Positions 1,173 through 50,978 of a stretch of 55,841 nucleotides of DNA are shown here, in pieces. The notes beneath the pieces are model-generated. The model had not been told where the DNA came from, made no database searches, and was given only the letters and a program-made list of their open reading frames with translations. A program made the position numbers and the translations under genes. Source of the stretch: an uncultured Bacteroides sp. (GTDB lineage Bacteria > Bacteroidota > Bacteroidia > Bacteroidales > Bacteroidaceae); NCBI GenBank assembly GCA_945965395.1, contig CAMFND010000044.1, forward strand, positions 71,223 to 127,063, read 5' to 3'. How positions within the stretch are numbered: the stretch's first letter is position 1; every line of letters starts with the position of its first letter.

Positions 1173-1326
1173 AAAACGCTTGAATTCCTCCTGAAAAACG
1201 CACTTGCGTTTGAAGGAAAACGTACTTGCGTTTTGATTAAAATGCACTTGCGTTTCAAGTAAAACGTACTTGCGTTTGAATCGAAACGTACTTGCGTTTT
1301 AGCGTAAACGTAAAGGCGTTTTTTAT
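1173..1326. repeat. Array 1: seven tandem 22-bp units with an imperfect palindromic core
   Basis: Seven units start at 1173, 1195, 1217, 1239, 1261, 1283 and 1305, each exactly 22 bp. The core of the five central units is AAACGYACTTGCGTTT or a one-base variant (AAATG in the unit at 1239), a dyad centred on the CT dinucleotide, followed by a variable 6-bp spacer. The first and last units are degenerate. The array lies between two convergent genes and its last unit overlaps the stop codon of the rRNA methyltransferase. Its ends, AAAACGC at 1173 and GCGTTTT at 1316, are inverted relative to each other. Function unknown; no spacer diversity of the CRISPR kind. Confidence 0.9.
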
Positions 1327-2735
1327 CCGAATAAATCCGGAATAATTTCCGGCAAATATCCGCTTCGGATTCGCCACTCCTGCGGGTACAAGTTATTGGC
1401 CCGGTTACCGATATTCTTGGCAAATCCTAATACCTGACCTTGATAAGTAAGTGTCACATACCCTCTCGACACTTCCGGTGAAAGTACTACCGCTTCTTTC
1501 CGCAAATAAGCAATGGCCTGTGAGTAAGTCAGTTCAGCCATCGGAAACGACTCTCTCTCAAAAACAGTGCTCATAGCCAGGGCATGCGAAGGCTGCCAGT
1601 CCTTTCCCTTTAACTCTCCTAAAGAAATTCCGGCATGCAATATGCGCAACTGGCTCTTCAGCAGGTCATACGTATCTTTATAGGCAGCAGGAAAGGCCAT
1701 CGCTTCACTGTCATTTACTTCAAACACATAGTCTCCGGCTCCCTGCACCCAGGCTTTCATTTCCTTTGGCACTTGAAGCGCAACCACCTTACCTCCTCTT
1801 CCTTTTTTGGAAGCCTTCCCACCGGTCTTTGTCCGCACACTCACCGCGGGTTCATCCGCTGTTTTCCGCAGCACTGCCATAAACAGACCTTCACCCGTAG
1901 TCTTATGAGGCAGGAAACGGTAAACCGGAAACTCCGTACTGGTCAGATTTCCCGTAATGCGCCAGCCCGGCTGCGTCTCCAAAGGAAGTACCTCTGCCCC
2001 AAGTTCTTGAGCAATCCATGCCACATTGTCCTCATTTTCCTCCCGATTGTATGTACATGTGCTATAAATCAATAAGCCTCCGGTCTTCAGGCAAGGCCAT
2101 ATATCCCGTAAAATACGGCGCTGACGCTGCCAGCAGGTATCCACATTCTCTATGCTCCACTCCTGTACGGCCACTTCATCCTTGCGGAACATTCCTTCAC
2201 CCGAACAGGGCACATCTGTCAGAATCACATCGAACAGCGGTCCTAATTCTGTAAAATCAGCCGGATTATTATTGGTTACAATCACCCCCGGATTTCCCCA
2301 TTTTATCAGATTCTCAGCCAGTACCTGCGAACGGTTGCGCATCACCTCATTGGCCACCAGCAAGCTGCCTTCCGGAAGTACGCTACGGGCCAAGGTAGAT
2401 TTTCCTCCCGGAGCTGCGCACAAATCGAGCATCGTGACCGGCTCGTGCACATACTGACGCAACGCCTGTTCAAGGAACATGGACGAAGCTTCCTGCACAT
2501 AATAGCAGCCCGCATGAAACAAGGGGTCGAACGTAAACGACGGACGACCGGACAGGTAATATCCTTCGCGACACCAGGGCACAGAGGTGCTTTCCTGCGG
2601 AACAAGGTCACATTTATCGGTATTCATACGAATACTGACAGGCGTATCTTTTTCCAAAGCTTCGGTCAAAGCAGCAAACTCCGCATTTCCCAGCAACTCA
2701 CGCGTACGGAGGATAAAATCAGAAGGTAAATTCAT
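1323..2735 (-). CDS. rsmF: RsmF/RsmB-type rRNA (cytosine-C5)-methyltransferase
   Basis: This 470-residue protein has the NOL1/NOP2/Sun fold that methylates cytosine C5 in rRNA using S-adenosylmethionine. Visible motifs are the SAM-binding DLCAAPGGKS near residue 104, motif IV DVPCSGEGMFRKD with the product-release cysteine, and motif VI STCTYNREENE with the catalytic cysteine. A basic linker (KTGGKASKKGRGGK) leads into a roughly 170-residue C-terminal region like the RsmF C-terminal/PUA-like domain, which argues for RsmF over the shorter RsmB. The ATG at 2735 has a -7 element 25 bp upstream and is divergent from thyA. The family is certain; the exact target cytosine cannot be read from sequence, so the symbol is a best guess. 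Confidence 0.85.
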   Translation of the reverse strand: MNLPSDFILRTRELLGNAEFAALTEALEKDTPVSIRMNTDKCDLVPQESTSVPWCREGYYLSGRPSFTFDPLFHAGCYYVQEASSMFLEQALRQYVHEPVTMLDLCAAPGGKSTLARSVLPEGSLLVANEVMRNRSQVLAENLIKWGNPGVIVTNNNPADFTELGPLFDVILTDVPCSGEGMFRKDEVAVQEWSIENVDTCWQRQRRILRDIWPCLKTGGLLIYSTCTYNREENEDNVAWIAQELGAEVLPLETQPGWRITGNLTSTEFPVYRFLPHKTTGEGLFMAVLRKTADEPAVSVRTKTGGKASKKGRGGKVVALQVPKEMKAWVQGAGDYVFEVNDSEAMAFPAAYKDTYDLLKSQLRILHAGISLGELKGKDWQPSHALAMSTVFERESFPMAELTYSQAIAYLRKEAVVLSPEVSRGYVTLTYQGQVLGFAKNIGNRANNLYPQEWRIRSGYLPEIIPDLFG

Positions 2736-2759
2736 GTTTCCAGCAATTGATTACGGCGG

Positions 2760-2767
2760 CAAAAATA
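2760..2767 (-). promoter_or_regulatory. Bacteroides -7 element for the rRNA methyltransferase gene
   Basis: On the minus strand this reads TATTTTTG, matching TAnnTTTG, 24 nt from the ATG at 2735. It is back to back with the thyA promoter. Confidence 0.6.
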
Positions 2768-2780
2768 CAAAAAAATTAGC

Positions 2781-2788
2781 TACCTTTG
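2781..2788 (+). promoter_or_regulatory. Bacteroides -7 element for thyA
   Basis: TACCTTTG matches TAnnTTTG. Transcription should begin near 2794-2796, so a start codon at 2786 would lie upstream of the mRNA 5' end. This fixes the thyA start at 2810. Confidence 0.7.
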
Positions 2789-2809
2789 CACAAACAAAAA
2801 AATCCAATC

Positions 2810-3604
2810 ATGAAACAATATCTCGATTTGTTGCACCGCATCCGTACGGAAGGAGTACGAAAAGAAGACCGTACCGGAACGGGCACCATCAGCGTGTTCG
2901 GACATCAGATGCGCTTCAACCTGGAAGAGGGCTTCCCGCTTGTCACGACCAAGAAACTTCACTTGAAATCCATCATCCATGAACTGCTCTGGTTCTTACA
3001 AGGAGATACCAACGTGAAATACCTGCAAGAAAACGGAGTCAGAATCTGGAACGAATGGGCAGATGAAAACGGCGATTTAGGACACATCTACGGTTACCAG
3101 TGGCGTTCATGGCCGGGTTATGACGGCAAGTTCATCGATCAGATTTCGGAAGCCGTGGAAACCATCAAGCATAATCCCGACTCACGACGCATCATTGTCA
3201 GTGCATGGAACGTGGGCGACCTGAACAACATGAATCTTCCGCCGTGTCATGCATTCTTCCAGTTTTATGTAGCCAACGGCCGTCTCAGCCTGCAAATGTA
3301 CCAGCGCAGTGCCGATACCTTCTTAGGGGTACCTTTTAATATTGCATCGTATGCCCTGCTGCTGCAGATGATGGCACAGGTAACCGGCTTGAAAGCGGGC
3401 GACTTTATTCATACACTCGGCGACGCTCATATTTACCTGAATCACCTGGAACAGGTAGACCTGCAGCTCACCCGTACCCCGCGCCCCCTGCCTACCATGA
3501 AAATCAATCCGGACGTGAAAGATATTTTCAGCTTCCACTATGAAGATTTTCAGTTAGAGAATTATGACCCCTGGCCTCACATTGCCGGAAAAGTATCTGT
3601 ATAA
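2810..3604 (+). CDS. thyA: Thymidylate synthase
   Basis: ThyA methylates dUMP to dTMP using methylenetetrahydrofolate and releases dihydrofolate. The 264-residue length equals that of E. coli ThyA, and the catalytic cysteine sits in [10 protein letters not shown] at residue 146, the same number as in E. coli. The substrate-binding stretch [20 protein letters not shown] is present. I chose the ATG at 2810 (MKQYLDLL) because the -7 element at 2781 makes the upstream in-frame start untranscribed and because it matches family length. It is followed after 18 bp by folA, which regenerates tetrahydrofolate from the dihydrofolate made here, so the two form a functional operon. Confidence 0.97.
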
Positions 3605-3622
3605 ACATTAAAACCCTCAGAC

Positions 3623-4117
3623 ATGACACTATCCATCATTGCAGCCATCAACCAGAAAAGAGGAATAGGCTATCAGAACAAGTTGCTCTACTGGCTGCCT
3701 AACGACTTAAAACGCTTCAAGGCACTGACCACCGGACATACCATCATTATGGGACGCCACACGTTTGAATCACTTCCGAAAGGAGCTCTCCCCAACCGGA
3801 GAAACGTGGTACTCAGCCGCCAGGAACTGCACTTTGAAGGTGCGGAATGTTTCCACACACTGGCCGATGCCCTGCATACCTGCAAGGAAGACGAGGAGGT
3901 ATTTATCATCGGAGGAGCTACTCTCTACACGGAAGCACTCCCATTGGCCGACCGCCTGTATCTTACGGAAGTAGACGATGAGCAGGCACCCGCCGATGCC
4001 TTCTTCCCAGAAGTAAGTCCGGAGTTATGGAAAGAAAAAAGTAGAGAATGCCATCCGACAGACGAAAAGCATCTCTACTCCTATAGTTTCGTAGATTACG
4101 AACGTACGCAAAAATAA
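3623..4117 (+). CDS. folA: Dihydrofolate reductase
   Basis: FolA reduces dihydrofolate to tetrahydrofolate with NADPH. The 164 residues carry the family signature: IAAINQKRGIGYQNKLLYWLP at the N-terminus, the substrate-binding acid in LPNDLKRFK, the NADPH-binding MGRHTFESLPKGALPNRRNVVLSR segment, and FIIGGATLY. It is the target enzyme of trimethoprim. It sits 18 bp after thyA with no terminator between, so the two are probably cotranscribed. The 11-bp gap to the convergent Lrp-family gene leaves little room for a terminator. Confidence 0.96.
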   Translation: MTLSIIAAINQKRGIGYQNKLLYWLPNDLKRFKALTTGHTIIMGRHTFESLPKGALPNRRNVVLSRQELHFEGAECFHTLADALHTCKEDEEVFIIGGATLYTEALPLADRLYLTEVDDEQAPADAFFPEVSPELWKEKSRECHPTDEKHLYSYSFVDYERTQK

Positions 4118-4128
4118 GCGTCGCGATT

Positions 4129-4608
4129 TTAATCCTCATCATTCGCCAGATCCATTATCGGCATCTGGCGCTTGATAGCTTCACGGAAAGAAATAATTGT
4201 TTCCGAACGCGACAAGCCCAACGGTTGAAGTTTATCGTGGATAATTTCCAGCAAGTGATGATTGTTCTTTGCATAAATCTTGATGAACATGTCATACTGC
4301 CCTGTCGTAAAATGACATTCCACTACTTCCGGAATAAACTTCAAAGCTTCCGTTACAGTGTCAAACTGTTCCGGATCCTTCAAATACAAACCGATGTAAG
4401 CACAGGTTTCATAACCTATCTTTTCCGGATCAATGATAAATTCTGAACCCTTCAGAATTCCCAGGTTCGTCAACTTCTGAATTCGCTGATGAATAGCGGC
4501 TCCCGATACATTACAAGCACGTGCTACTTCCAAGAAAGGAATACGTGCATTGCCTGCAATCATACGCAAAATTTGTTCGTCTAAACTGTCTAATTGATGA
4601 TGTCCCAT
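4129..4608 (-). CDS. Lrp/AsnC-family transcriptional regulator
   Basis: This 159-residue protein has the Lrp/AsnC layout: an N-terminal winged helix-turn-helix (LDEQILRMIAGNARIPFLEVA, then VSGAAIHQRIQKL) and a C-terminal RAM effector-binding domain (from about residue 65) with the glycine-containing turn GQYDMFIKIYAKN. The family forms dimers and octamers that sense amino acids. It has its own -7 element at 4631-4638 and is convergent with folA. The porin and CstA genes lie to its right on the same strand but behind a terminator. Ligand and regulon cannot be inferred. Confidence 0.92.
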   Translation of the reverse strand: MGHHQLDSLDEQILRMIAGNARIPFLEVARACNVSGAAIHQRIQKLTNLGILKGSEFIIDPEKIGYETCAYIGLYLKDPEQFDTVTEALKFIPEVVECHFTTGQYDMFIKIYAKNNHHLLEIIHDKLQPLGLSRSETIISFREAIKRQMPIMDLANDED

Positions 4609-4630
4609 CTTCTATGTTTTTGTATTCGTG

Positions 4631-4638
4631 CAAAGATA
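4631..4638 (-). promoter_or_regulatory. -7 element for the Lrp-family gene
   Basis: The minus strand reads TATCTTTG, an exact TAnnTTTG match, 22 nt upstream of the ATG at 4608. Confidence 0.7.
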
Positions 4639-4754
4639 ATACTTTTTCTTCATATAATTTCAACATTTATTACTTTTACATGCCTTTAATCATGAACTTT
4701 ACAGAATATCCATCATTTTTCATCAAATATTTACAATATCAGCCATGCATTTTT

Positions 4755-4762
4755 TAATTTTG
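4755..4762 (+). promoter_or_regulatory. Orphan plus-strand -7 element
   Basis: TAATTTTG matches TAnnTTTG, with TTTA about 21 bp upstream as a weak -33 box. No annotated plus-strand gene follows; a 22-codon ORF begins at 4794. See the finding on this region. Confidence 0.35.
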
Positions 4763-4793
4763 CAATTTCCAAATAGCAAAGAAAGAGTAAAAA

Positions 4794-4862
4794 ATGACTA
4801 CAAAAATAGCGAGAAGCGGCATTCCTCACCGATGCATCTTCTCGCTATTTCATTATAACTGA
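4794..4862 (+). CDS. Candidate 22-residue mini-ORF (weak)
   Basis: ATG at 4794 opens a 22-codon frame (MTTKIARSGIPHRCIFSLFHYN) ending in TGA at 4860-4862. A purine-rich AAGAAAGAG lies just upstream and a TAnnTTTG element lies 31 bp upstream. The ORF spans the terminator hairpin of the convergent porin gene, so it may be a chance frame. I see no homologue by eye. It is listed because promoter, Shine-Dalgarno-like sequence and ORF occur in the right order and spacing. Confidence 0.2.
   Translation: MTTKIARSGIPHRCIFSLFHYN
4804..4850 (-). terminator. Rho-independent terminator of the porin gene
   Basis: A perfect 13-bp stem pairs AAATAGCGAGAAG (4804-4816) with CTTCTCGCTATTT (4838-4850) around a 21-nt loop. 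Read on the minus strand it is followed by a short T tract and lies 18 bp past the porin stop. Confidence 0.75.
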
Positions 4863-4868
4863 TACGAA

Positions 4869-6110
4869 TTAAAACTGGAACAAAGCAGTCAGTACGATGC
4901 GGTTATTCTTTACCAGATGGGTGTTGGTCACCCGTGCCTTGTCGGTATAATCGCCATACCACGCGCCGGTCCAAGTATATTCTGCTCCGAACTTCCAGTT
5001 CGGGCGATTGTAAGTCAATTCGGCCCCCAGTGTATTCAACTGGTCGATATTTGTTCCTGTACCCAATACTCCAGTCACATTTTTCGATGCTCCCAAGTTT
5101 TTGAGATACCCGGCAAACACTCCGCCACGGAACTTACTTCCATACATCATATTTACCCAAGTATGCGATACACGCAAAGGAGTGTACTCCTGTTCACCCG
5201 TGCGAGAGTCGGTACACGTAATGCCATACCCGCCAATTGTACTGGTTTGCGTCAGGTTTGACCCTAACACGCTCTTGGCTGCCAGCAAGAAACGACGGTG
5301 CACATATTTCACATGCGCCTCAGCTGAAACTCCTGTCACGCGTTCGCTTACCTTGTATATATTGTCATTGTATTTCGATTCTGTACGGGGAGACATGGAA
5401 GACACATGCACACCCGCTCCGGCAAGCAACCCGGGACGATTGTAATCCATGCCCAAATAAAATTCGGGCAAGCAACCGTTCTTCATAAAGCTCTGACTCT
5501 TAGTCGTAGTAACGGCTCCTGCCTCGTTTGAAGAAGGACCTACCGACAAATATTGAGACTGCCATATAGCAGCAGCGGTCAGTTTGAAATTTTTGTTTGT
5601 AAACCGATAGCGAACCTGCGGTGCACGGCTGAACGGCTGGTAAGGTGCTCCCATGTTCAAGTTCAGAATTTCAGGAGCCACATCTCCATACAGAGGATGC
5701 CATGTTTGTCCGACCAGCAGGGCTGACTTTCCCCAATCAAGGTTGAAATACACGTGACGAATACGGAACAAAGAATAAGTGGTACCCGAACCACGGAAAT
5801 CGACTTCCACCTTTGCCGAAGTCTTTGCCTTTCCCAAGGCAGGTCCGGTCACATCCACTCCCAATCTGGTGTACAATGTATAGAAGTTACCATCCGGTTT
5901 GGCATTCAAATCCTTTCCATCCGCATCAGGAGCTACATCCTTAGGATACATGTAAAAAAGTCCGTCGACAGTTTCTGAGTTGGAACGGCTGTTATAGAAT
6001 AAGTCGGTCCGCACCTGTCCATAAAATTTATAACCAAAACCTTCTTTCTGAGCCATTACCCCTGCCGAAGCGGCCATCATGACCCACATTAAAAAGCATC
6101 TTTTTTTCAT
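4869..6110 (-). CDS. Outer-membrane beta-barrel porin, DcaP-like
   Basis: The 413-residue protein has a signal peptide (MKKRCFLMWVMMAASAGVMA, cut before QKEG) and ends in the beta-barrel signature LTALFQF with a terminal Phe. The body alternates polar and aromatic residues as in 16- to 18-strand porins, with segments such as YGQVRTDLFYNS, HVYFNLDWGKSALLVGQTWHP and QVRYRF, which resemble the DcaP-like porins of Bacteroidetes and Proteobacteria. DcaP-type porins admit anionic solutes. It has its own -7 element (6139-6146) but lies directly downstream of the CstA gene on the same strand, so it may supply that transporter's substrate. Family assignment is moderately confident; substrate is unknown. 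Confidence 0.75.
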   Translation of the reverse strand: MKKRCFLMWVMMAASAGVMAQKEGFGYKFYGQVRTDLFYNSRSNSETVDGLFYMYPKDVAPDADGKDLNAKPDGNFYTLYTRLGVDVTGPALGKAKTSAKVEVDFRGSGTTYSLFRIRHVYFNLDWGKSALLVGQTWHPLYGDVAPEILNLNMGAPYQPFSRAPQVRYRFTNKNFKLTAAAIWQSQYLSVGPSSNEAGAVTTTKSQSFMKNGCLPEFYLGMDYNRPGLLAGAGVHVSSMSPRTESKYNDNIYKVSERVTGVSAEAHVKYVHRRFLLAAKSVLGSNLTQTSTIGGYGITCTDSRTGEQEYTPLRVSHTWVNMMYGSKFRGGVFAGYLKNLGASKNVTGVLGTGTNIDQLNTLGAELTYNRPNWKFGAEYTWTGAWYGDYTDKARVTNTHLVKNNRIVLTALFQF

Positions 6111-6138
6111 TTGAAATTACTTTTACCTTTACAGCCCG

Positions 6139-6146
6139 CAAAATTA
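6139..6146 (-). promoter_or_regulatory. -7 element for the porin gene
   Basis: The minus strand reads TAATTTTG, matching TAnnTTTG, 28 nt upstream of the porin ATG. The porin can therefore be transcribed apart from the upstream CstA gene. Confidence 0.6.
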
Positions 6147-6177
6147 TACATAATCTATAGAACAGCCAAACAATTCT

Positions 6178-7608
6178 TTATAAGGAACGTATCCGGCGGA
6201 ACCAGCATACAAACCAGACCGCAGCCACCAGTGCACAACACAATCCGACAGGATAAGCCACTTCGGCCGACAAGGCCAGCCCTTCGGGAGCAATGAGAAT
6301 ATATGTGGCACAAACACAAGTCATAAACAGAGCCGGTATCAAAGTTACCCAATAGTTTTTCCGTGCACAAACCAGCCAGACCGTAATGGCCCACAAAGTA
6401 AAGACAGACAAAGTCTGATTACACCAGGCAAAATATCGCCAGATAATCTTGAATCCTTCCGCATCTCCAAAGCTGTACACCAACAACAAGATAGTAACCA
6501 AGAATATGGGGATACAAATGAAGAGACGTTTAGCGATAGAGCGCTGCTCTACATGAAAAAAGTCAGCCACAATCAGACGTGCCGAACGCAAGGCGGTATC
6601 ACCACTCGTAATAGGAGCTGCCACAATTCCCAATATGGCCAAAATGCCACCGAATGCCCCTAACCAGTCTTTTGAGATATCTGTAGCAACCTTGGCTCCG
6701 GAATAAGCCACTCCGGTCACTTTATCCACGATACCGTTCTCCTGAAAGAAATAAGTCGCCGCAGCAGCCCAGATAAGTGCCACAATTCCTTCCGTTACCA
6801 TCGCTCCATAAAAAATCGGACGACAGTGCTTTTCATTCATAATGCAACGCGCCATTAAAGGTGACTGAGTTGCATGAAAACCGCTGATGGCTCCACATGC
6901 AATGGAGATAAACATCATTGGGAAAATCGGGTTCTTCTCATACTTCGTACCAAATCCCTCCCATATTTCAGGTAAGGCCGGACTTTTGACATACAGCATA
7001 ACAAGAATGCCTACAGCCATAAACAACAAGGCAAAGGCAAATAAAGGATAAATGCGCCCGATGATTTTATCAATGGGAAGCATGGTCGCCAAAATGTAAT
7101 ACAAAAAAATCACGACCATCCAGAAATACACATCCAGCGCAGAAGGAGTCATACCGGCCAGCAGCTCTGCAGGTCCTGAAACAAATACCGCACCGACCAA
7201 AATCATCAGCAAGACAGTAAACACGCAGGCCACCTTTTTAGTCCGGCTTCCTAAATAACGACCAATAATTTCCGGAAGGCTTTCTCCATTGTTACGCAAC
7301 GATAAGGTACCGGACAAAAAATCGTGTACGGCTCCGGCGAAAATCGTACCGAACACAATCCACAAATAAGAAGCCGTACCAAACTGCGCCCCCATTATCG
7401 CTCCGAAAATAGGTCCGAGCCCGGCTATGTTCAAAAACTGAATCATAAAAATTTTCCATGTGGGAAGGGGAATAAAATCCACCCCGTCGGCCATCGTCAA
7501 AGCCGGCGTTTTACGTGTAGAATCAGGAGCAAACAAGGAATTGACGTAGTTTCCATAAACCCAATATCCCACCACCAATAATACCAATGCGAGAGTAAAT
7601 GTTATCAT
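6178..7608 (-). CDS. cstA: CstA-family carbon starvation transporter (short form)
   Basis: CstA-family proteins are inner-membrane carriers for pyruvate or peptides, induced on carbon starvation. The 476 residues are almost wholly hydrophobic helices and carry family landmarks: FIPLPTWKIFMIQFLNIAGLGPIFGAIMGA near residue 50, HDFLSGTLSLRNNGESLPEIIGRYLG, SGFHATQSPLMARC and the ITSGDTALRSARL stretch. E. coli CstA is about 700 residues, so this is the short form lacking the extended C-terminal part. I start at the ATG at 7608, not the in-frame TTG at 7617. A -7 element lies at 7637-7644. The porin follows 67 bp downstream. Confidence 0.88.
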   Translation of the reverse strand: MITFTLALVLLVVGYWVYGNYVNSLFAPDSTRKTPALTMADGVDFIPLPTWKIFMIQFLNIAGLGPIFGAIMGAQFGTASYLWIVFGTIFAGAVHDFLSGTLSLRNNGESLPEIIGRYLGSRTKKVACVFTVLLMILVGAVFVSGPAELLAGMTPSALDVYFWMVVIFLYYILATMLPIDKIIGRIYPLFAFALLFMAVGILVMLYVKSPALPEIWEGFGTKYEKNPIFPMMFISIACGAISGFHATQSPLMARCIMNEKHCRPIFYGAMVTEGIVALIWAAAATYFFQENGIVDKVTGVAYSGAKVATDISKDWLGAFGGILAILGIVAAPITSGDTALRSARLIVADFFHVEQRSIAKRLFICIPIFLVTILLLVYSFGDAEGFKIIWRYFAWCNQTLSVFTLWAITVWLVCARKNYWVTLIPALFMTCVCATYILIAPEGLALSAEVAYPVGLCCALVAAVWFVCWFRRIRSL

Positions 7609-7636
7609 ATCTATCAATTTATCTTTTATTATCGCG

Positions 7637-7644
7637 CAAAAGTA
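7637..7644 (-). promoter_or_regulatory. -7 element for cstA
   Basis: The minus strand reads TACTTTTG, matching TAnnTTTG, 28 nt upstream of the ATG at 7608. Confidence 0.65.
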
Positions 7645-7759
7645 ATAAAAAGAAACAAACCGTTACTGTTTTCAAGAAAAATTTACTCCGAAGCCCTCAT
7701 TCTTTCACCTCTTCTTCCGGCTTATTATCTTCTTTCTCTACATATCCGTAATTTATATG

Positions 7760-7767
7760 TATATTTG
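7760..7767 (+). promoter_or_regulatory. -7 element for the GHL10 gene
   Basis: TATATTTG matches TAnnTTTG. The TTG inside it would be an in-frame start codon, but it lies upstream of the transcription start, which places the real start at 7786. Confidence 0.65.
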
Positions 7768-7785
7768 CACAAACATTTAAAAGAT

Positions 7786-9444: not shown

Positions 9445-9483
9445 TTTTATCCCGAAACGCATGGTAATAAAAGGAATAATCAC

Positions 9484-9491
9484 TAAATTTG
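9484..9491 (+). promoter_or_regulatory. -7 element for purM
   Basis: TAAATTTG matches TAnnTTTG. It lies inside the ORF extension that begins at 9461, so the functional start must be the ATG at 9527. Confidence 0.65.
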
Positions 9492-9526
9492 CACATTCAA
9501 TTGAAACAAACAAACTTACTATACTC

Positions 9527-22775: not shown

Positions 22776-23462
22776 TTAAATTTCTTTAATTCTTAACACA
22801 TTATACGAGATATGCTCGTCATATACATCTGTATCATCCACCCGTTTGATGTACTTCACTACACGAACAGTTACTGGCAGTACAATCACTTCATACAAAG
22901 TCTTGAGTACCACCTGCACCAGCATCATCTTGGCCAGTTCACTCACCGACATCAGTCCGCCAAAAGCCAGCGGGAAGAAAATCAGCGAGTCGGCTCCCTC
23001 TCCGGCTATGGTCGACAATACGGCACGGGCAGAGAAGTTCTTTCCGTGTGAAGCCACTTTCATGCGGCTCATCACATACGCATTGATAAACGAACCAACC
23101 AGAAAGGCTGTCAGACTGGCCACCGCAATACGGGGAGCCATGCCGAATACGAAATTGAAGCTTTCTTCTCCCTCCCAGAACGGAGCAGCGGGAAGAGCCA
23201 CTGCCAACTGTCCCATGGCCACTACCATGAAATTCATGAGGAAGCCCATCCAGATAATCAGACGCGCCTTACGGAAGCCCCACACTTCGGCAATACAGTC
23301 ATTAATAATGTAAGAAATCGGGAAAACAATGAGTCCGGCAGTTACGGAAATCGGACCCAGCTGTACGACTTTGGTTTCTAACAAATTGGCCGCCACCAGG
23401 CAGACACAAAACACAATGCCCAAAACCATAAAAGGCACTGATACGAGATTTTCTTTCTTCAT
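22776..23462 (-). CDS. Queuosine precursor transporter, YhhQ/QPTR family
   Basis: The 228-residue membrane protein has about six helices and the QPTR (DUF165) signatures: [41 protein letters not shown] and [13 protein letters not shown]. YhhQ of E. coli imports preQ0 and preQ1; other members salvage queuine or queuosine. It heads the operon with queC and queF, so the cell can both take up and make precursors. Its leader carries a candidate preQ1 riboswitch whose tail includes the AGGAG Shine-Dalgarno sequence 4 nt before the ATG, which suggests translational control by preQ1. Confidence 0.92.
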
Positions 23463-23554: not shown

Positions 23555-23640
23555 CAAAGAAATTTCGGGATTAAACTCCATTCCTCTCCAATTATCTTAC
23601 AAACCTGCGGCAAATATGTGGCAGACATTTGTTTCTTTTT

Positions 23641-23730
23641 TATGTTTCCCGATGCAGAACCCTATGTTTTCCTTACGAGAACCCTATGTTTCCCGGTGCG
23701 GAAACATAGGGTTCGCATAAAGGAAACATA
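23641..23730. repeat. Array 2: 22-bp-phased palindromic repeats with inversion
   Basis: The word GAACCCTATGTTTCC, or a one-base variant, occurs twice forward (from 23657 and 23679) and once inverted (23700-23714), with half-copies at both ends. Its central TA falls at 23641, 23663, 23685, 23707 and 23729, exactly 22 bp apart, and the phase holds across the inversion. The centre forms a perfect 15-bp inverted repeat (23679-23693 with 23700-23714, 6-nt loop), extended imperfectly to about 31 bp. This array is the main content of the 396-bp gap 23463-23858 apart from the two promoters and the candidate riboswitch. Confidence 0.9.
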
Positions 23731-23820
23731 AAAAGAAGAACAACACCCCAAAAACATCACCAGTTCAATCCTCAAATACCGTTTTCTTCTCACACTTACA
23801 GAAAAAACAAATAAAAATCG

Positions 23821-23828: not shown

Positions 23829-23858
23829 TGAATAATGTATCTAAATTTATTCCACACT

Positions 23859-24716
23859 ATGGCTCAAATACATATCAATCAGAATACATGCATACGCTGT
23901 AAGAAATGCGTCAGAATATGCCCATCTGCTCTGTTTACCCTTCAGGAAGATAAAGGTATTGAAGTGAATGCCGATGACTGCATCAGTTGCGGACACTGCG
24001 TGGCCGTTTGCCCGACCAACTCCATTGAGCACGCTGATTTTCCACCCGAAAAGGTTCATACCATCGACCGTAGCCAACTTCCCACTGCCGACCAGGTGGA
24101 ACTGCTCATCCGGTCCCGCCGCTCGAACCGCGCATTCTCCACAGAAAAAGTTTCGGAAGAGTTGTTACAGCGCATCATAGAGGCTGCCCACCGGGCCCCG
24201 ACGGCAACCAATGCACAAGAAGTCAAAATGGTATTGGTCACCCGCCCGGAAACCTTGAAGGAGGTCAGCCGTGTCACCATCGGCACTTTTATGTCGATAG
24301 TAAACTTGGTGGAAAATCCGTTACTGAAATTAATACTGAAACCGCTCATGCCCTCTGCCTATCGCTACGTGCCGGTGTTCAAAAGGCTGCATGAAGAATT
24401 TGAACGTGGCAACGACGGAATTTTAAGAGGAACCACGGCTGCCATCTTTTTCTATACCGATAAAAAAGAACGTTTCGGATGTCAGGACTGCAATCTTGCC
24501 TACCAGAATGCTTCGCTCATGGCAGAAGCAGAAGGAGTCTCACAGTTCTATACCGGATTCGTGTGTAGTGCAGCAGGAATGGACCGGAAAGGAAAGCTAC
24601 AAAAGCTGTTAGGTATTGAAGGTACCGTTCATGCCGGTATTGCATTAGGTATGCCGTCTTTCCGCTTCAATAAATACATCGACAAAAAAGAGATGGTATT
24701 GAAACGTATTGATTAA
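23859..24716 (+). CDS. Ferredoxin-nitroreductase fusion oxidoreductase
   Basis: The 285-residue protein joins an N-terminal bacterial ferredoxin domain with two [4Fe-4S] motifs (CIRCKKCVRICP from about residue 11 and CISCGHCVAVCP from about 41) to a nitroreductase fold from about 75 onward, with the FMN-binding signature RRSNRAFSTEKVSEELLQRI and APTATNAQEVK. The clusters probably pass electrons to FMN, allowing ferredoxin- rather than NAD(P)H-dependent reduction in an anaerobe. Such fusions are frequent in gut Bacteroides; the substrate is unknown. The start at 23859 (MAQIHINQ) follows from the promoter. corA begins 12 bp after its stop. Confidence 0.9.
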   Translation: MAQIHINQNTCIRCKKCVRICPSALFTLQEDKGIEVNADDCISCGHCVAVCPTNSIEHADFPPEKVHTIDRSQLPTADQVELLIRSRRSNRAFSTEKVSEELLQRIIEAAHRAPTATNAQEVKMVLVTRPETLKEVSRVTIGTFMSIVNLVENPLLKLILKPLMPSAYRYVPVFKRLHEEFERGNDGILRGTTAAIFFYTDKKERFGCQDCNLAYQNASLMAEAEGVSQFYTGFVCSAAGMDRKGKLQKLLGIEGTVHAGIALGMPSFRFNKYIDKKEMVLKRID

Positions 24717-42430: not shown

Positions 42431-42462
42431 TTTTCAGCAGACTATATCAGTACTTTTTTTAC

Positions 42463-42508
42463 ATCCCCCTTATTTGCCTAAAAATGGGCAAATAAGGGGG
42501 ATTTTTTT
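42463..42508 (+). terminator. Strong rho-independent terminator after alaS
   Basis: ATCCCCCTTATTTGCC (42463-42478) pairs perfectly with GGCAAATAAGGGGGAT (42487-42502), followed by seven T residues. Confidence 0.95.
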
Positions 42509-42510
42509 CG

Positions 42511-42518
42511 TACTTTTG
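42511..42518 (+). promoter_or_regulatory. -7 element for the MATE gene
   Basis: TACTTTTG, only 3 bp past the T run of the alaS terminator and 25 nt before the MATE ATG. Confidence 0.65.
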
Positions 42519-42543
42519 CCCACATTCTACAAGTATACAGTTT

Positions 42544-43908: not shown

Positions 43909-43923
43909 TATACACAACCTTCC

Positions 43924-44832: not shown

Positions 44833-44856
44833 TTGACACAGTGTGTTATTTTCCCG

Positions 44857-44864
44857 CAAAGATA
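44857..44864 (-). promoter_or_regulatory. -7 element for the AraC-family gene
   Basis: The minus strand reads TATCTTTG, 24 nt upstream of ATG 44832. It overlaps the in-frame TTG, which rules that start out. Confidence 0.65.
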
Positions 44865-44960
44865 ATATTTCAGGCCTTTTTTACGATATAAACAAGTATT
44901 TATCGAACAAAAAGAACATTCCGTCACACATATAGGACCGAAAGATTACCCCAAACCCTC

Positions 44961-44968
44961 TATCTTTG
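44961..44968 (+). promoter_or_regulatory. -7 element for the efflux operon
   Basis: TATCTTTG matches TAnnTTTG, 32 nt before the first gene of the operon. The region 44865-44960 between the divergent promoters should hold any AraC operator, but I see no clear direct repeat. Confidence 0.7.
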
Positions 44969-45000
44969 CCATACAACCTTTTAATAAATACCCAACGCCT

Positions 45001-46251
45001 ATGATACGAACATTTCTCCTTTTGTGTGCATGGAGCCTGAGTGTGATAAGTCAGGCACAAATCACCTTGGAAAGTTGCAAGCAGCAGGCCCGTGAAAACT
45101 ATCCGCTGGTACGACAATACGACTTGATTCAACTGTCCGAACAATATACGCTCTCAAATGTGGCAAAAGGCAATCTGCCCCAAATCAGCATAAGTGGAAA
45201 AATATCTTATCAAAGTGAAGCTACTACCTTTCCTTTCGAGATTCCAGGATTGGGCATGAAGGGACTACCCAAAGACCAATATCAGGCATTGATTGAAATC
45301 AAACAGAATATATGGGACGGAGGAAAAATCCGCAACCAGAAAGCTCAGGTCAAAGCCGAAGCCGAAGAACACGAGCGACAGCTTGATACCAGCTTGTATG
45401 CACTGGAGGAAAGGGTGAATCAGGTGTTCTTCGGTATCCTGTTACTGGACGAGCAACTGGCACAAAATGTATTATTGGAAGAAGAGCTCGCACGCAACCA
45501 GAAAACGGTGGAGGCTTACCGGATAAACGGCACAGCCAATGAGGCCGACGTAGACGCGGTAAAGGTAGAGATTCTTCAAACCAAGCAGCAACGTATCCAG
45601 TTGGAGAACAACCGTATGGCCTATCTGCGTATGCTGTCTTTACTTACAAGAAATGAATTTCCGGCACAAACCCGGTTAGTACGTCCAACCCTTGTGGAAA
45701 CGAATACATCTGAATTCAACCGTCCTGAACTACGGTGGTATGAAGCACAAGAACAGACTGCCGCTGTACAACGAAAGGGATTGCAAACGGGTTATCTTCC
45801 AGCTTTTAGTCTTTTTGCGCAAGGAGCCTACGGCAATCCGGGACTGGATATATTGAAAGATAAATTCAGAACCTACTACTTGGTCGGAGCCCGGTTTACC
45901 TGGAATTTCGGAAGCCTGTACACTCTGAAGAACGACCGGAAAAACCTGGACAACCGTATCCAGCAAATTAGAAATGAACGCGACTTATTCTTATTCAACA
46001 CACACTTACAACTGGCAGAAGAAGACGGCACCATCCAAAGTCTTCGCCAGCAAATGAAAGAAGACGAGGAGATTATCCGATTACGGGAAAACATCCGACG
46101 GTCTGCCCAGGCCAAAGTAGCAAACGGCACGATGAGCGTCAGTGACATGCTGAAAGAAATTACAGCCGAGAATCTCGCGCGCCAAACCAAAGCCGCACAT
46201 GAAGTGCAATTGCTCATGCATCTACACCAAAGAAAACACCTGACCAACTAA
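45001..46251 (+). CDS. TolC-family outer membrane efflux protein
   Basis: The 416-residue exported protein (signal peptide ending SQAQ) is the outer-membrane duct of the efflux operon. Two TolC-type repeats of long helices are visible, for example ITLESCKQQARENYPLVRQYD at the N-terminus, IKQNIWDGGKIRNQKAQVKAE mid-chain and the second half around FTWNFGSLYTLKNDRKNLDNR. It starts an operon with the membrane-fusion protein, a dual ATPase and two permeases. This protein is distinct from the partial TolC homologue at the start of the window. Confidence 0.9.
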   Translation: MIRTFLLLCAWSLSVISQAQITLESCKQQARENYPLVRQYDLIQLSEQYTLSNVAKGNLPQISISGKISYQSEATTFPFEIPGLGMKGLPKDQYQALIEIKQNIWDGGKIRNQKAQVKAEAEEHERQLDTSLYALEERVNQVFFGILLLDEQLAQNVLLEEELARNQKTVEAYRINGTANEADVDAVKVEILQTKQQRIQLENNRMAYLRMLSLLTRNEFPAQTRLVRPTLVETNTSEFNRPELRWYEAQEQTAAVQRKGLQTGYLPAFSLFAQGAYGNPGLDILKDKFRTYYLVGARFTWNFGSLYTLKNDRKNLDNRIQQIRNERDLFLFNTHLQLAEEDGTIQSLRQQMKEDEEIIRLRENIRRSAQAKVANGTMSVSDMLKEITAENLARQTKAAHEVQLLMHLHQRKHLTN

Positions 46252-46279
46252 CCCGTTTCACACTAAAATACTCAAGCGT

Positions 46280-47170
46280 ATGAAAAAAAGATATGTATTT
46301 CAAACTCTGCTGCTGATTTGCCTGACTGCCTGTGGGTCCAAAGACGAATTTGATGCTACCGGCACCTTCGAAGCGACAGAAATCGTAGTATCTTCCGAGG
46401 CTAGCGGGAAACTTTTTTACCTGAATGCGGAAGAAGGTATGCACTTTACACAAGGAACCGAAGTCGGACTGATTGATACGGTGCAGCTTTATTTGAAGAA
46501 ACGACAGCTGGAAGCGCAGATGAAATCGGTAGAGAGCCAGCGCCCCGACATCCACCGGCAAATAGCTGCCACAAAAGTACAGATTGCCACGGCACAGCGG
46601 GAACGCGACCGGGTGGAGAATCTACTTAAAGCACAGGCTGCCAACCGTAAACAACTGGATGACTGGGATTCACAATTGGCGGTACTCAACCGACAACTGG
46701 AAGCGCAACTTTCTTCGCTAGGGAATACCACCGCCAGCCTGACAGAACAAAGTTCATCAGTCGCCATCCAGGTGGCACAAGTGGAAGATCAATTAAAAAA
46801 ATGTCACATCACCGTTCCCATCAACGGAACCATCTTAGCAAAGTATGCCGAACCCAGTGAACTGGCTACAGTAGGAAAACCGCTGTTCAAGATAGCCGAT
46901 ATGGAGTATATCTTCCTGCGGGCATACCTCACCTCTTCACAGTTGGAGTCGGTGAAATTAGGCAACGAAGTCACCGTTTTTGCCGATTTCGGCAATGCAC
47001 AACTCAGGAATTACCCCGGCAAGATAGTCTGGATTTCCGAAGAAGCGGAATTTACGCCCAAAACTATCCTGACCAACGATGAACGGGCCAACCAGGTATA
47101 TGCCGTCAAAATAGCCGTAGAAAACGACGGACACATCAAACTGGGCATGTACGGGAAAGTCAAATTCTGA
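46280..47170 (+). CDS. HlyD-family membrane-fusion lipoprotein (YbhG-like)
   Basis: The 296-residue adaptor has a lipoprotein signal with Cys18 (ICLTACGSKDEF), the N-terminal half of the lipoyl domain (GTFEATEIVVSSEASGKLFYL), a long coiled-coil hairpin (about 70-165), the second half of the lipoyl domain (ITVPINGTILAKYAEPSELA) and a beta-barrel C-terminal domain. It bridges the inner-membrane ABC-2 permeases and the TolC-like duct in the periplasm. The order with YbhF/YbhS/YbhR-like genes matches E. coli ybhGFSR. Confidence 0.92.
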   Translation: MKKRYVFQTLLLICLTACGSKDEFDATGTFEATEIVVSSEASGKLFYLNAEEGMHFTQGTEVGLIDTVQLYLKKRQLEAQMKSVESQRPDIHRQIAATKVQIATAQRERDRVENLLKAQAANRKQLDDWDSQLAVLNRQLEAQLSSLGNTTASLTEQSSSVAIQVAQVEDQLKKCHITVPINGTILAKYAEPSELATVGKPLFKIADMEYIFLRAYLTSSQLESVKLGNEVTVFADFGNAQLRNYPGKIVWISEEAEFTPKTILTNDERANQVYAVKIAVENDGHIKLGMYGKVKF

Positions 47171-47184
47171 AAACCGAGAGTGAC

Positions 47185-48675
47185 ATGAAAAACCTTATCG
47201 AAGTCAGTTATGTAAGCAAAAGCTACGGAAAGGTGCAAGCCCTGCGCGATGTATCCTTTAGCGTAAAGCAAGGAGAACTGTTCGGCCTCATCGGTCCAGA
47301 CGGAGCCGGGAAAAGTACCCTGTTCCGCATCCTGACCACCTTGCTGCTGCCGGACCAGGGAAGTGCCCGGGTACTGGATGCAAATGTACGGGCCGATTTC
47401 CGGACGATACGGCAGAGCGTAGGTTACATGCCGGGGCGCTTCTCCTTGTATCAGGACCTCACGGTAGAAGAAAACCTGCGTTTCTTTGCCACCATATTTC
47501 ATACGACTGTTGAAGAAAACTACGAGCGGATACGCGCCATTTATGAACAGATTGCCCCCTTCAAGCAGCGTCGGGCAGGTGCATTGTCGGGAGGAATGAA
47601 GCAGAAACTGGCTTTATGCTGTGCACTGGTTCATGCGCCGAAAGTCCTCTTTCTGGACGAACCAACTACCGGAGTAGACCCCGTTTCACGCCGGGAGTTC
47701 TGGGAGATGTTAGCACATCTCCGACAGGAAGGCATTACCCTTGTCGTATCCACTCCTTTCATGGACGAAGCCTTGCGGTGCGACCGGGTGGCGTTTCTTT
47801 ATGAAGGAGAAATTAAAGGCATCGACCGTCCGGAAGCCATACTGAAGCAGTTCAGCGAGATTCTATGCCCTCCCGGCCTGCAACGAAAAGCCGTCAATAA
47901 ACATACTCCGCCCATTATCCAGGTGGACAACCTCGTCAAACGATTCGGCTCGTTCACGGCCGTCGACCATATTTCATTTTCGGTACAACGGGGAGAAATC
48001 TTCGGTTTCTTAGGAGCTAACGGGGCCGGAAAGACTACTGCCATGCGCATCCTGTGCGGGCTCAGTCTTCCCTCCGAAGGAAAGGCTGAAGTGATGGGTT
48101 TTGACGTACGGACACAAAGCGAGGAAATCAAAAAACAAATCGGCTACATGAGCCAGAAATTTTCACTTTATGAAGACCTGACCGTACGTGAAAACCTCCG
48201 TCTGTTCGGAGGTATCTACGGTGTCAATGCCAAAGAAATCAGCAAGCGTACGGAAGAAACCTTACAGCGTATCGGACTTTACGAGGAACAGCATACCCTG
48301 GTCCGTTCGCTGCCTTTAGGATGGAAGCAACGGCTGGCCTTTTCTGTAGCTATCTTCCACCATCCGGAACTGGTTTTTCTGGACGAACCGACCGGAGGAG
48401 TCGACCCGGCTACCCGCCGTCAGTTCTGGGAACTGATTTATCAGGCTGCCGACCAGGGGATTACCATTTTTGTCACGACGCACTACATGGACGAAGCTGA
48501 ATATTGCGACCGTATCTCCATGATGGTGGACGGACATATTCGGGCACTGGATACTCCCGACGGACTGAAACACCGTTTTGATGCCCGAAACATGGACGAA
48601 GTCTTCCAGAAATTAGCACGTGAAGCCCAACGAGGAAAACATGCTTTTACTCACATGCAAACGGAACAGCCATGA
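47185..48675 (+). CDS. Tandem ABC-type ATPase (YbhF-like)
   Basis: Two nucleotide-binding domains are fused in 496 residues. The first (about 4-215) has Walker A GPDGAGKST at 37-45, signature LSGGMKQ and Walker B LFLDEPTTGVDP, but proline (P191) replaces the H-loop histidine in STPFMDEA. The second (about 245-470) has Walker A GANGAGKTT, a degenerate signature L376-P-L-G-W, and an intact H-loop with H433 in TTHYMDEA. Thus one composite site is canonical and the other degenerate, as in the YbhF family. It powers the two ABC-2 permeases that follow; its stop overlaps the next start (ATGA). Confidence 0.94.
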   Translation: MKNLIEVSYVSKSYGKVQALRDVSFSVKQGELFGLIGPDGAGKSTLFRILTTLLLPDQGSARVLDANVRADFRTIRQSVGYMPGRFSLYQDLTVEENLRFFATIFHTTVEENYERIRAIYEQIAPFKQRRAGALSGGMKQKLALCCALVHAPKVLFLDEPTTGVDPVSRREFWEMLAHLRQEGITLVVSTPFMDEALRCDRVAFLYEGEIKGIDRPEAILKQFSEILCPPGLQRKAVNKHTPPIIQVDNLVKRFGSFTAVDHISFSVQRGEIFGFLGANGAGKTTAMRILCGLSLPSEGKAEVMGFDVRTQSEEIKKQIGYMSQKFSLYEDLTVRENLRLFGGIYGVNAKEISKRTEETLQRIGLYEEQHTLVRSLPLGWKQRLAFSVAIFHHPELVFLDEPTGGVDPATRRQFWELIYQAADQGITIFVTTHYMDEAEYCDRISMMVDGHIRALDTPDGLKHRFDARNMDEVFQKLAREAQRGKHAFTHMQTEQP

Positions 48676-49793
48676 AACAGTTTATCGCTTTTGTCAAAAA
48701 AGAATTTCACCATATCCTGCGCGACCGACGTACCATGCTGATATTGATAGGCATGCCGATTGTACAGATTATCCTTTTCGGCTTTGCCATCTCGACCGAA
48801 GTGCGCAATGTACAGACTGCCATCCTTGCACCTTCCCTCCAGACGGATATACGGAAAGTGATGGAACAACTGGATGCCAGCGAGTATTTCACGGTGAAAT
48901 ATGTCGTCCAGTCACCCGACGAAATCGAACGGCTGTTCCGGCGCAACCTCATAGAACTGGCCATAGTCTTTCCCTCCGACCTGCATCGCCTGCGTTTCGA
49001 TTCGGAAGATATACAGATTTTAGCTGATGCCACCGACCCGAATCTGGCCGTCACACGGAGTACGTATGCCCAGACAATTCTGAGACAAGCCCTACAAACC
49101 ATCCGGCAAGCTACAACCACCCCAGCCTATTCACAACCGGATAAGCAGCCTGTCATGGTGTACAATAAACTGCTCTATAACCCGCAGATGAAGAGCGCCT
49201 ATAACTTTGTACCGGGAGTTATGGGATTGATTCTGATGCTGATTTGTGCCATGATGACCTCCATCTCTATCGTACGCGAAAAGGAAACAGGCACGATGGA
49301 AGTCCTGCTGGTCTCTCCCGTCAACCCGCTGTTCATCATTCTGTCGAAGGCAGTTCCCTATTTCGTGCTTTCCCTGCTGAACCTGACGACCATCCTGCTG
49401 CTCTCCGTCTTCGTGCTCGACGTACCAATAGCCGGAAGCCTGCCTGCCCTGTTAGGCGTATCCCTATTGTTCATTTTCGTATCCCTGGCATTGGGACTGC
49501 TTATCTCCTGCATCACCCATACGCAAGTAGCTGCCCTGTTAGTGTCGGCCATGGTACTGATGATACCCACCATCATCCTGTCGGGCATTATCTTCCCGAT
49601 AGAAAGTATGCCGGGCATTCTGCAGGTTCTCTCCTGCCTTATTCCCGCACGCTGGTACGTAGAAACCGTCCGCCGGCTGATGATTGAGGGTGTACCACTG
49701 GTATATGTATGGAAAGAAGTGACAGTGATGTGCCTCATGGCAGTGGTACTGATTACGGCTACTGCCCGCAAGTTTAAGAACCGACTGGAATAA
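48672..49793 (+). CDS. ABC-2-type transporter permease (YbhS-like)
   Basis: The 373-residue inner-membrane protein has the ABC-2 layout: one N-terminal helix (about 22-43), a large periplasmic domain (about 45-170), and five helices at the C-terminus. The SIVREKETGTMEVLLVSPV motif, typical of ABC-2 permeases, precedes the second helix. It overlaps the ATPase gene by 4 bp, so they are translationally coupled, and lies 12 bp before a second, related permease, with which it should form a heterodimer. Confidence 0.93.
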   Translation: MKQFIAFVKKEFHHILRDRRTMLILIGMPIVQIILFGFAISTEVRNVQTAILAPSLQTDIRKVMEQLDASEYFTVKYVVQSPDEIERLFRRNLIELAIVFPSDLHRLRFDSEDIQILADATDPNLAVTRSTYAQTILRQALQTIRQATTTPAYSQPDKQPVMVYNKLLYNPQMKSAYNFVPGVMGLILMLICAMMTSISIVREKETGTMEVLLVSPVNPLFIILSKAVPYFVLSLLNLTTILLLSVFVLDVPIAGSLPALLGVSLLFIFVSLALGLLISCITHTQVAALLVSAMVLMIPTIILSGIIFPIESMPGILQVLSCLIPARWYVETVRRLMIEGVPLVYVWKEVTVMCLMAVVLITATARKFKNRLE

Positions 49794-49805
49794 ACCGCCA
49801 AGCCT

Positions 49806-50867
49806 ATGATGTTACGTTACCTGATAGAAAAAGAATTCAAGCAGTTGAAACGCAACAGTTTCCTGCCCCGCCTCATCCTGCTTTTCCCCTGCATGATGAT
49901 GCTGGTTATGCCCTGGGCTGCCACATTGGAAATAGAGAACCTGCGCATTGCCGTCATCGATAACGACCGCAGCCCTTCTTCCGAAAGACTGGTACACCGC
50001 ATCGAAGCTTCCCGTTATTTTCAACTGACGGCACTTCCTCCGTCCTACGCACAAGGCCTGAAAGCCATCGAGAAAGACCAGACCGACATGCTGCTGGAAA
50101 TTCCACGCGGCTTTGAGAAAGCGCAAGCCAACGGACAAAGTCCAGCGGCACTCATTGCAGTTAATACCGTCAACGGCACGAAAGGCGGACTGGGCAGCGC
50201 TTACCTGCAACAGATACTCAACCCGTCTTCTTCGCAAGATTCTGTCCGCTACCGGTTCAATCCTTACCTGAACTATAAAGTATTCATGGTTCCTGCACTG
50301 ATGACTATGCTATTGATTACACTTTGTGGATTTCTGCCAGCTCTAAACATTGTAAGTGAAAAGGAAGCGGGTACCATCGAACAAATCAACGTGAGTCCGG
50401 TCAGCCGCTTTACCTTCACCCTTGCCAAACTGTTGCCTTATTGGGCCATCGGGTTTGTGGTACTGAACCTGTGCATACTGTTGGCCTGGCTGGTGTACGG
50501 ATTAACTCCGGTAGGAAACGTGCTGACCATCTACCTGGCCACCCTGATTTTCGCACTGGTCATGTCGGGACTGGGGCTGGTCATATCCAATTACTCTTCT
50601 ACCATGCAGCAGGCCATGTTCGTCATGTGGTTCTGCATGCTGATTTTCATCCTGATGAGCGGACTGTTTACCCCCATCAGCAGCATGCCGGAATGGGCAC
50701 AAGGCATCACCTATCTCAATCCGTTGCGCTACTTTATGGAAATCATGCGCATGGTCTACCTGAAGGGAAGCAGCATCTGCGATATCGGCTTCCAACTTTC
50801 CGTACTTTCGTCCTTTGCCCTTCTGCTCTACGCATGGGCCATACGCAGCTACCGCAAGCAGCAATAA
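49806..50867 (+). CDS. ABC-2-type transporter permease (YbhR-like)
   Basis: The 353-residue protein shares the layout of the preceding permease: an N-terminal helix, a periplasmic domain (about 45-165), the NIVSEKEAGTIEQINVSPVS motif and five C-terminal helices. It starts with two ATG codons at 49806 and 49809 and the choice is open. It is the last gene of the operon for a TolC-dependent efflux machine; E. coli YbhFSR exports cationic drugs and Na+, but the substrate here is unknown. No hairpin terminator follows; instead array 3 begins 24 bp downstream. Confidence 0.93.
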   Translation: MMLRYLIEKEFKQLKRNSFLPRLILLFPCMMMLVMPWAATLEIENLRIAVIDNDRSPSSERLVHRIEASRYFQLTALPPSYAQGLKAIEKDQTDMLLEIPRGFEKAQANGQSPAALIAVNTVNGTKGGLGSAYLQQILNPSSSQDSVRYRFNPYLNYKVFMVPALMTMLLITLCGFLPALNIVSEKEAGTIEQINVSPVSRFTFTLAKLLPYWAIGFVVLNLCILLAWLVYGLTPVGNVLTIYLATLIFALVMSGLGLVISNYSSTMQQAMFVMWFCMLIFILMSGLFTPISSMPEWAQGITYLNPLRYFMEIMRMVYLKGSSICDIGFQLSVLSSFALLLYAWAIRSYRKQQ

Positions 50868-50890
50868 GCCCAAATGTGCTTGCCATCTTA

Positions 50891-50978
50891 CCTCGACACG
50901 TACGTGCGGATCCCTCATCACGTTCGTGTCAAGGTCTCGTCACCTTCGTGTCAATATCTCGTCACGTACGTGTCGAGG
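50891..50978. repeat. Array 3: four 22-bp palindromic units
   Basis: Four units start at 50891, 50913, 50935 and 50957. Their cores are CACGTACGTG, CACGTTCGTG, CACCTTCGTG and CACGTACGTG, perfect or near-perfect dyads whose centres fall at 50901/2, 50923/4, 50945/6 and 50967/8. The whole array is bounded by a perfect 16-bp inverted repeat, CCTCGACACGTACGTG (50891-50906) and its complement (50963-50978). It lies between two co-directional genes. Confidence 0.92.

Follow-up and report, generated by a model that had tools for sequence, protein, structure and literature searches.

Dispersed families of intergenic dyad arrays share a 21- to 22-bp pitch but not a sequence word in Bacteroides

In a 55,841-nucleotide stretch of the draft genome of an uncultured Bacteroides sp. 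(GenBank assembly GCA_945965395.1, contig CAMFND010000044.1; G000:C44:71223-127063, hereafter called the window), three intergenic regions contain arrays of short dyads repeated at a 22-bp pitch, each array being built from a sequence word of its own. The genome (G000; 3.72 Mb in 161 contigs, 94.3% complete) carries five families of such arrays, F1 to F5, and at least four further words were found in relatives, two of them dispersed by whole-genome search, with a pitch of 21 to 22 bp and, in one case, 22 to 23 bp. The shared geometry without shared sequence that an earlier note had described for the window is real and extends past it. On balance, we favor the view that the arrays are nonautonomous, dispersed intergenic repeats, similar to repetitive extragenic palindromes (REPs) and bacterial interspersed mosaic elements (BIMEs), whose dyads, phased at two helical turns, would be bound by a dimeric protein. 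The three arrays in the window are as follows.

1173..1326, no strand assigned: F1 array, six 16-bp quasi-palindromes at a 22-bp pitch (1196-1321), word AAACGYACTTGCGTTT
23636..23734, no strand assigned: F2 array, a half unit, three full units and a half unit, word GRAAMCRTAVGKTTYC
50890..50979, no strand assigned: F3 array, four units at a 22-bp pitch, word TGACACGTWCGTGTCR

Tandem Repeats Finder (TRF) reported a period of exactly 22 at 1195-1299, 23641-23703, and 50914-50979 and additionally called 1195-1321 as period 66, confirming the unit length given in the earlier note. Inspection of the sequence also bears out the other properties named there: each unit holds a dyad, the spacers vary, and the outer words are inverted. 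In the F1 array, the last unit is inverted and a degenerate outer unit is found near 1173; in the F2 array, the last full unit is inverted, with a T run and an A run at the borders; and the F3 array is bordered by ACCTCG and CGAGGT.

The claim that each locus has a different word turned out to be wrong, every word representing a dispersed, multilocus family. In G000, the F1 word has 76 exact matches at 43 places (counted by hand), with none for the control. With one mismatch allowed, 21 matches to the F2 word were found at 15 places, compared to 2 for the control, and its three exact matches all lie at the window locus. The F3 word has 27 such matches (control, 9), of which 11 are exact and lie at 9 places. 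The fourth family, F4 (AGTACTRYAGTACT, also written AGTACTNNAGTACT; pitch, 22 bp), came to light when TRF was run on stretches selected for other families and has 58 sites with at most one mismatch (control, 1). Finally, F5 (YYCACASTGTGRR; pitch, 21 bp) was first seen at the locus orthologous to that of the second window array and is present in G000 too.

To judge from the sequences, F3 and F5 have plainly spread by copying, since their copies are alike position by position and some F3 pairs are alike even in short flanks. When 16 F3 stretches were compared (5 of which held chance matches only) and matches of at least 70 bp were considered, the best pairwise matches showed 74 to 95% identity over 71 to 121 bp, several of them extending into the flanks; for F5, the second unit plus spacer is identical in most copies among the matches listed for the related genomes G007 and G023. 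These observations bear on the proposal that a local process builds 22-bp dyad arrays from whatever sequence is present, by quasi-palindrome template switching and slippage. Some units at the first window locus do differ symmetrically between G000 and a further relative, G090 (AAACGC..GCGTTT versus AAACAT..ATGTTT), as might be expected of such a process. However, the same words turn up at numerous unlinked sites, copies match one another position by position, and template switching should perfect palindromes, yet the center of the F1 unit is never paired. Local building is therefore not supported; it is largely refuted by the dispersed families, and we regard it as very improbable. A viral origin was also rejected, as the pair patterns of three words had no exact match in viral contigs.

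In G000, five F3 sites are no more than about 100 bp away from a contig end (C51:7, C58:9, C77:11101, C81:15593, and C135:6472), so that these repeats probably break the assembly. Two other tandem repeats were encountered in the same genome: an 85-bp-unit array of 4.9 copies at a contig end (L098:5368-5778, on C29) and a 21-bp repeat, TTGTCCCAAGTTGTCCTAAGT (L092:5772-5834, on C23), which matches none of the five families.

How firm is the pitch? A scan of 1,234,752 bases of G000, about half of which had been fetched for holding a family word, returned 60 arrays, compared to 0 in one first-order simulated copy. Distances of up to 100 bp between units of the same family were 22, 44, 66, and 88 bp for F1; 22 and 44 bp for F2 and F4; 22, 44, and 66 bp for F3; and 21 and 42 bp for F5, the exceptions being nine F1 pairs (one at 23 bp and the other eight a base below a multiple of 22) and two F5 pairs at 2 bp. 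In a sample of 40 stretches (509 kb), picked by contig number from contigs not fetched before, TRF produced 50 rows, with a period of 22 or 44 in 14, 21 in seven (two of them F5), 20 in three, and 23 in one; 12 of the 14 rows with period 22 or 44 belong to the families and make up 10 arrays.

Arrays of this kind are not restricted to G000. F1 pairs with up to two mismatches were found in 6 of 60 genomes (G000, 135; G007, 130; G023, 145; G090, 36; G087, 2; G008, 1) and F5 pairs in 7 of 60, while the F4 word occurred in 6 of 80 genomes, G000 included, with a single occurrence in two. Among named records, F1 pairs were present in two Bacteroides mediterraneensis genomes (18 stretches). F5-like words with different spacers were observed in other species of the genus (G091:C2:27255, G091:C4:80346, G032:C86:589, and G032:C87:4433). 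Of the words found in relatives, the TACGTA family was detected in 10 of 60 genomes (forward pairs: G005, 286; G016, 75; G002, 52), two of which, G030 and G031, had one or two matches only, and the GAAAC-NNNN-GTTTC family was detected in 10 genomes, three of which had one or two matches only; reversed-pattern controls gave 0 for both. Since both search patterns fix the pitch at 22 bp, these counts show dispersal at that pitch and not the absence of others. None of the other genomes searched reached the count of G005, whose 286 TACGTA-family forward pairs lie in 3.3 Mb. TRF analysis of 60- to 100-kb samples revealed 22-bp dyad arrays in G042 and G002 and 22- to 23-bp arrays in G017, and no dyad arrays in the samples of G011, G084, and G030.

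Fifteen loci, grouped by ourselves and in several cases chosen for their exact F1 pairs, were compared among G000, G090, G023, and G007. Eight of these carry one family in all genomes compared (one F3 locus among them was seen in G007 by TRF only), and arrays are retained vertically in intergenic DNA across species. At four loci, an array is present in some genomes but missing from another: from G023 at the first window locus, from G007 at an F4 locus, from G000 at an F5 locus, and from G023 at an F2 locus, where the flanks align poorly. In the last three, the family itself is not the same in every genome. The second window locus carries F2 in G000 and G090 and F5 in G023 (four units) and G007 (two units, detected under one settings choice only); the L086 locus carries F2 in G000, G090, and G023 and F5 in G007; and the L220/L227 locus carries F1 in G023 and F2 in G007. 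At the L086 locus, the alignment puts F2 and F5 cassettes of near-equal length at the same place, i.e., a same-site swap, whereas at the other two loci the exact position of the array either is not the same or is hard to tell. The third window locus, finally, carries F3 in all four genomes, with four units in three of them and two in G007, where 44 bp is missing. The variation in copy number or word between strains that had been anticipated is seen between species, as a whole-unit change at the third window locus and as a difference in family at 3 of 15 loci.

Such cassettes might also be miniature inverted-repeat transposable elements (MITEs) that depend on at least one as yet undiscovered transposase, for which the phased dyads would be internal sites. 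The arrays resemble MITEs in being short copied cassettes with inverted ends: by eye, F2, F4, and F5 cassettes have inverted ends, F3 and F5 were copied as units, and, again by eye, the outer ends of F2 and F5 are alike (TTYTNTGTTTC) where one replaces the other. However, a full-length parent element was not seen in the sampled stretches of four genomes (no whole genome was scanned), no target duplication has been established, and the families share a pitch but mostly not their ends; all in all, a MITE origin seems quite unlikely to us. By eye, a repeated CAGA at the first window locus in G007 is one candidate for a target duplication.

Each family has a usual number of units: five in 15 of 25 F1 arrays, three in 13 of 18 F2 arrays, four in 6 of 9 F3 arrays, three in 5 of 5 F4 arrays, and three in 3 of 3 F5 arrays (four or two F5 units in G007 and G023), with F2 and F4 arrays typically containing three units plus two half units. 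Units measure 13 to 16 bp, and spacers measure about 6 to 8 bp. Neighboring F1 units have the same direction in 61 pairs and opposite directions in 32, the unit having an asymmetric center: position 9 is T in all 119 oriented units, and the central pair is paired in 0 of 118 units, which are therefore never perfectly self-complementary. Furthermore, the pairing-restoring combination of T6 with A11 was found in 0 of 119 oriented units (T6 alone, 40; A11, 21), an absence that would fit a protein tolerating one weak half-site and not selection for a hairpin. Within-unit pairing showed no covariation, departures from shuffling being below the shuffled level.

Sixteen of the 60 arrays are located at sequence edges; the other 44 were scored with a home-made, crude gene caller, and one of these overlaps a called gene. 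Twenty are flanked by codirectional, 14 by convergent, and 10 by divergent genes, the respective figures for the 203 intergenic regions of 150 bp or more that served as background being 108, 35, and 60. The same mixture is found in the window, the flanks of which had been correctly described.

F1 array, convergent flanks: gene ending at 1132 (+) and gene 1323-2735 (-)
F2 array, divergent flanks: genes 22776-23462 (-) and 23835-24716 (+)
F3 array, codirectional flanks: genes 49806-50867 (+) and 51106-53751 (+)

By eye, no rule linked array orientation to gene orientation. In the sampled stretches of four genomes, only two neighboring arrays were within 6 kb of each other, and these were of different families; no gene in sampled stretches was closely flanked on both sides by arrays of the same family, in the manner of a REPtron.

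Could the dyads then act as hairpins in untranslated RNA, as terminators or stabilizers? F1 units could, by inspection, form 6-bp stems, there is some excess of convergent contexts (14 of 44 arrays versus 35 of 203 background regions), and F2 spacers show complementarity, as discussed below. Nevertheless, we consider this explanation unlikely. Intrinsic terminators are expected downstream of genes, but the flanking genes are divergent at 10 of 44 arrays; pairing-restoring combinations are missing in F1; the GAAAC-NNNN-GTTTC words of relatives would give only 5-bp, A+T-rich stems (by inspection); and the array at the F4 locus is preceded by a distinct hairpin that resembles a terminator (by eye). 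In addition, the arrays have no Rfam match, the single match in the window being a tRNA gene at 55707-55788.

In G007, which has a one-contig chromosome, we mapped 54 places of F1, F4, and F5 among the matches listed, two-mismatch places, F2, and F3 being left out. These places are unevenly spread (Rayleigh P = 0.0042), and the largest gap, from 1.89 to 2.73 Mb, spans 0.209 of the circle (P = 0.0002 versus uniform). The GC skew, determined coarsely from six 8-kb pieces and one 240-kb region, is positive in three pieces at 1.26 to 1.82 Mb and has a value of -0.036 at 1.83 Mb, while the piece at 3.12 Mb and those at 3.2 to 3.44 Mb are negative; with this change of sign around the gap, the terminus is probably in or near it. 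Similarly, only 1 of 19 places in G017 falls within 0.21 to 1.42 Mb, a region of 1.2 Mb around the skew change (positive at 0.1 Mb and negative at 1.1 Mb). Judged post hoc, arrays are scarce around the inferred terminus in these two near-complete chromosomes.

This scarcity raises the possibility that the arrays are bound by a protein of the Noc or SlmA type, with a role in the nucleoid or in the control of division, and are spread over the chromosome and excluded from the terminus. The Noc-binding sites (NBS) of Bacillus subtilis have been described as palindromic and missing from the terminus (PMC4331003), and the arrays share with these and with the SlmA-binding sites (SBS) the form of scattered palindromes and, post hoc, the terminus-poor distribution in two genomes, with a gap in G007 that is significant versus uniform and near the skew change. 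However, the intervals were picked after seeing the data, the G007 mapping covers only part of the families and matches, and the largest-gap test for G017 alone gave a P value of 0.55. Terminus regions, moreover, are often rich in acquired DNA and would therefore lack old core arrays anyway. Five families per genome, with clade-specific words, are unlike Noc or SlmA, as is the arrangement in arrays of several unrelated words, for which no protein is known (no search for a cognate protein was made). We therefore assign only a low probability to this account.

In the REP/BIME-like reading that we favor, each copy would be a cassette of approximately 90 to 150 bp, with a family-typical number of 13- to 16-bp dyads spaced at two helical turns. 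Each dyad would be the site of a dimeric DNA-binding protein, and the 21- to 22-bp pitch would set neighboring dimers on one face of the DNA, so that geometry could be kept while words diverge between families and species. Copies would be spread by a trans-acting machinery and then be inherited vertically in intergenic DNA. The copying of a single element cannot give one pitch for many words, which calls for a common constraint; a pitch of two helical turns and a dyad in which no more than one half-site is weak suggest dimeric proteins bound on one face. The orientation-independent context, the family-typical unit number, and the loci kept across species fit this reading as well. So does the weakness of the F1 words in G090: among the relatives examined, this genome stands nearest to G000 (96% in two proteins), yet it holds 36 F1 pairs, compared to 130 in G007 and 145 in G023, both of which lie farther off, a pattern that the loss of a cognate factor in G090 would give. 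The suggestion that a protein reads spacing with its own specificity at each locus survives in a reworded form, with specificity per family instead of per locus, as the words are multilocus families.

Several observations count against it. No protein or transposase has been identified as reader or copier. In particular, a search for Y1_Tnp (PF01797) transposases had 0 matches in G000 and was positive in 5 of 14 control genomes (relatives were not searched), and an origin from REP-associated tyrosine transposases (RAYTs) or IS200 was rejected for G000 on this ground. A target-site duplication could not be established from the empty sites, which are too diverged. With regard to pitch, the scan for period-22 dyads that the earlier note had proposed, performed blind to words, showed an excess only at the strictest threshold (11 at period 22 versus 0 to 7 elsewhere; simulation, 0.5 at 22 and 0 to 4.5 elsewhere), but at looser thresholds period 22 was unexceptional, and the scan is only weakly informative; an earlier, stricter version yielded 3 at period 22 and also 3 at 33 and was too strict for use. 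The absence of T6 with A11 in F1 may partly stem from the common descent of the units. Structure may matter for F2, in which spacers two apart are more complementary than expected by chance (on average 3.06 of 6, with 2.05 expected; z = 4.3; 4 of 32 perfect) and some copies are long inverted repeats (by eye). Lastly, the weakness of the F1 words in G090 is slight when single loci are compared. There, mismatches per F1 unit amounted to 0.2 in G000, 1.8 (a value that takes in one stretch outside the array) and 1.4 in G007, 1.4 in G023, and 2.0 to 2.6 in G090 (three loci); this difference is small, and fewer F1 loci in G090 would be an alternative account.

Known systems resemble the arrays only in part. 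Plasmid iterons are protein-read direct repeats at about two helical turns, a spacing that the arrays share, but the arrays are dyadic and occur at many dispersed loci on chromosomal contigs. Clustered regularly interspaced short palindromic repeats (CRISPRs) likewise combine short, partly palindromic repeats with variable spacers; however, CRISPR repeats are given as 24 to 48 bp (PMC3733652), with unique spacers, whereas here many small arrays per genome consist of much shorter units and spacers. Identity with the orphan CRISPR of Bacteroides fragilis, described with 24-bp repeats and 39-bp spacers (PMC5704556), was also rejected. With REPs, BIMEs, and REP doublets forming hairpins (REPINs), the arrays have in common that they are dispersed, many-copy intergenic palindromes (apart from the one array in 44 that overlaps a crude gene call), with several families per genome, inverted members in clusters, and words that differ between species. 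They differ in their fixed 21- to 22-bp phasing and family-typical unit number. REP elements are described as carrying GTAG or CGTC as a terminal tetranucleotide on one side (PMC3733652); by inspection, without statistics, no such tag was seen at one end of the listed arrays, although some F1 units carry CGTC inside the dyad. As neither this tag (by inspection) nor, in G000, a RAYT gene was found, we file the arrays as a REP/BIME-like variant and not as members of the REP family.

More speculatively, and with a small chance of being correct, the arrays could form a genus-wide system in which geometry, not sequence, is the conserved signal. In such a system, intergenic dyad arrays phased at two helical turns would be excluded from the terminus, and every array family would have a dedicated reader from a rapidly diverging family of dimeric DNA-binding proteins, building ordered filaments to organize the chromosome; words would decay when their protein is lost (F1 in G090), and loci could be re-equipped in place (F2 to F5).

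We found no description of 22-bp-phased dyad arrays in Bacteroidales in a limited, open-license literature, which is weak evidence of absence. The surprising part is that one pitch is found across several sequence families, which hints at a shared DNA-binding or copying machinery. On the practical side, the arrays also seem to break assemblies, as at the five F3 sites within 100 bp of contig ends. If our reading is true, this genus, whose members are abundant in the gut, carries a phased repeat class with a spacing conserved across unrelated words, and it becomes testable whether spacing alone is read, and by which protein. It would also bear on an old question regarding REPs, namely, whether such repeats are selfish passengers or sites that organize the chromosome.

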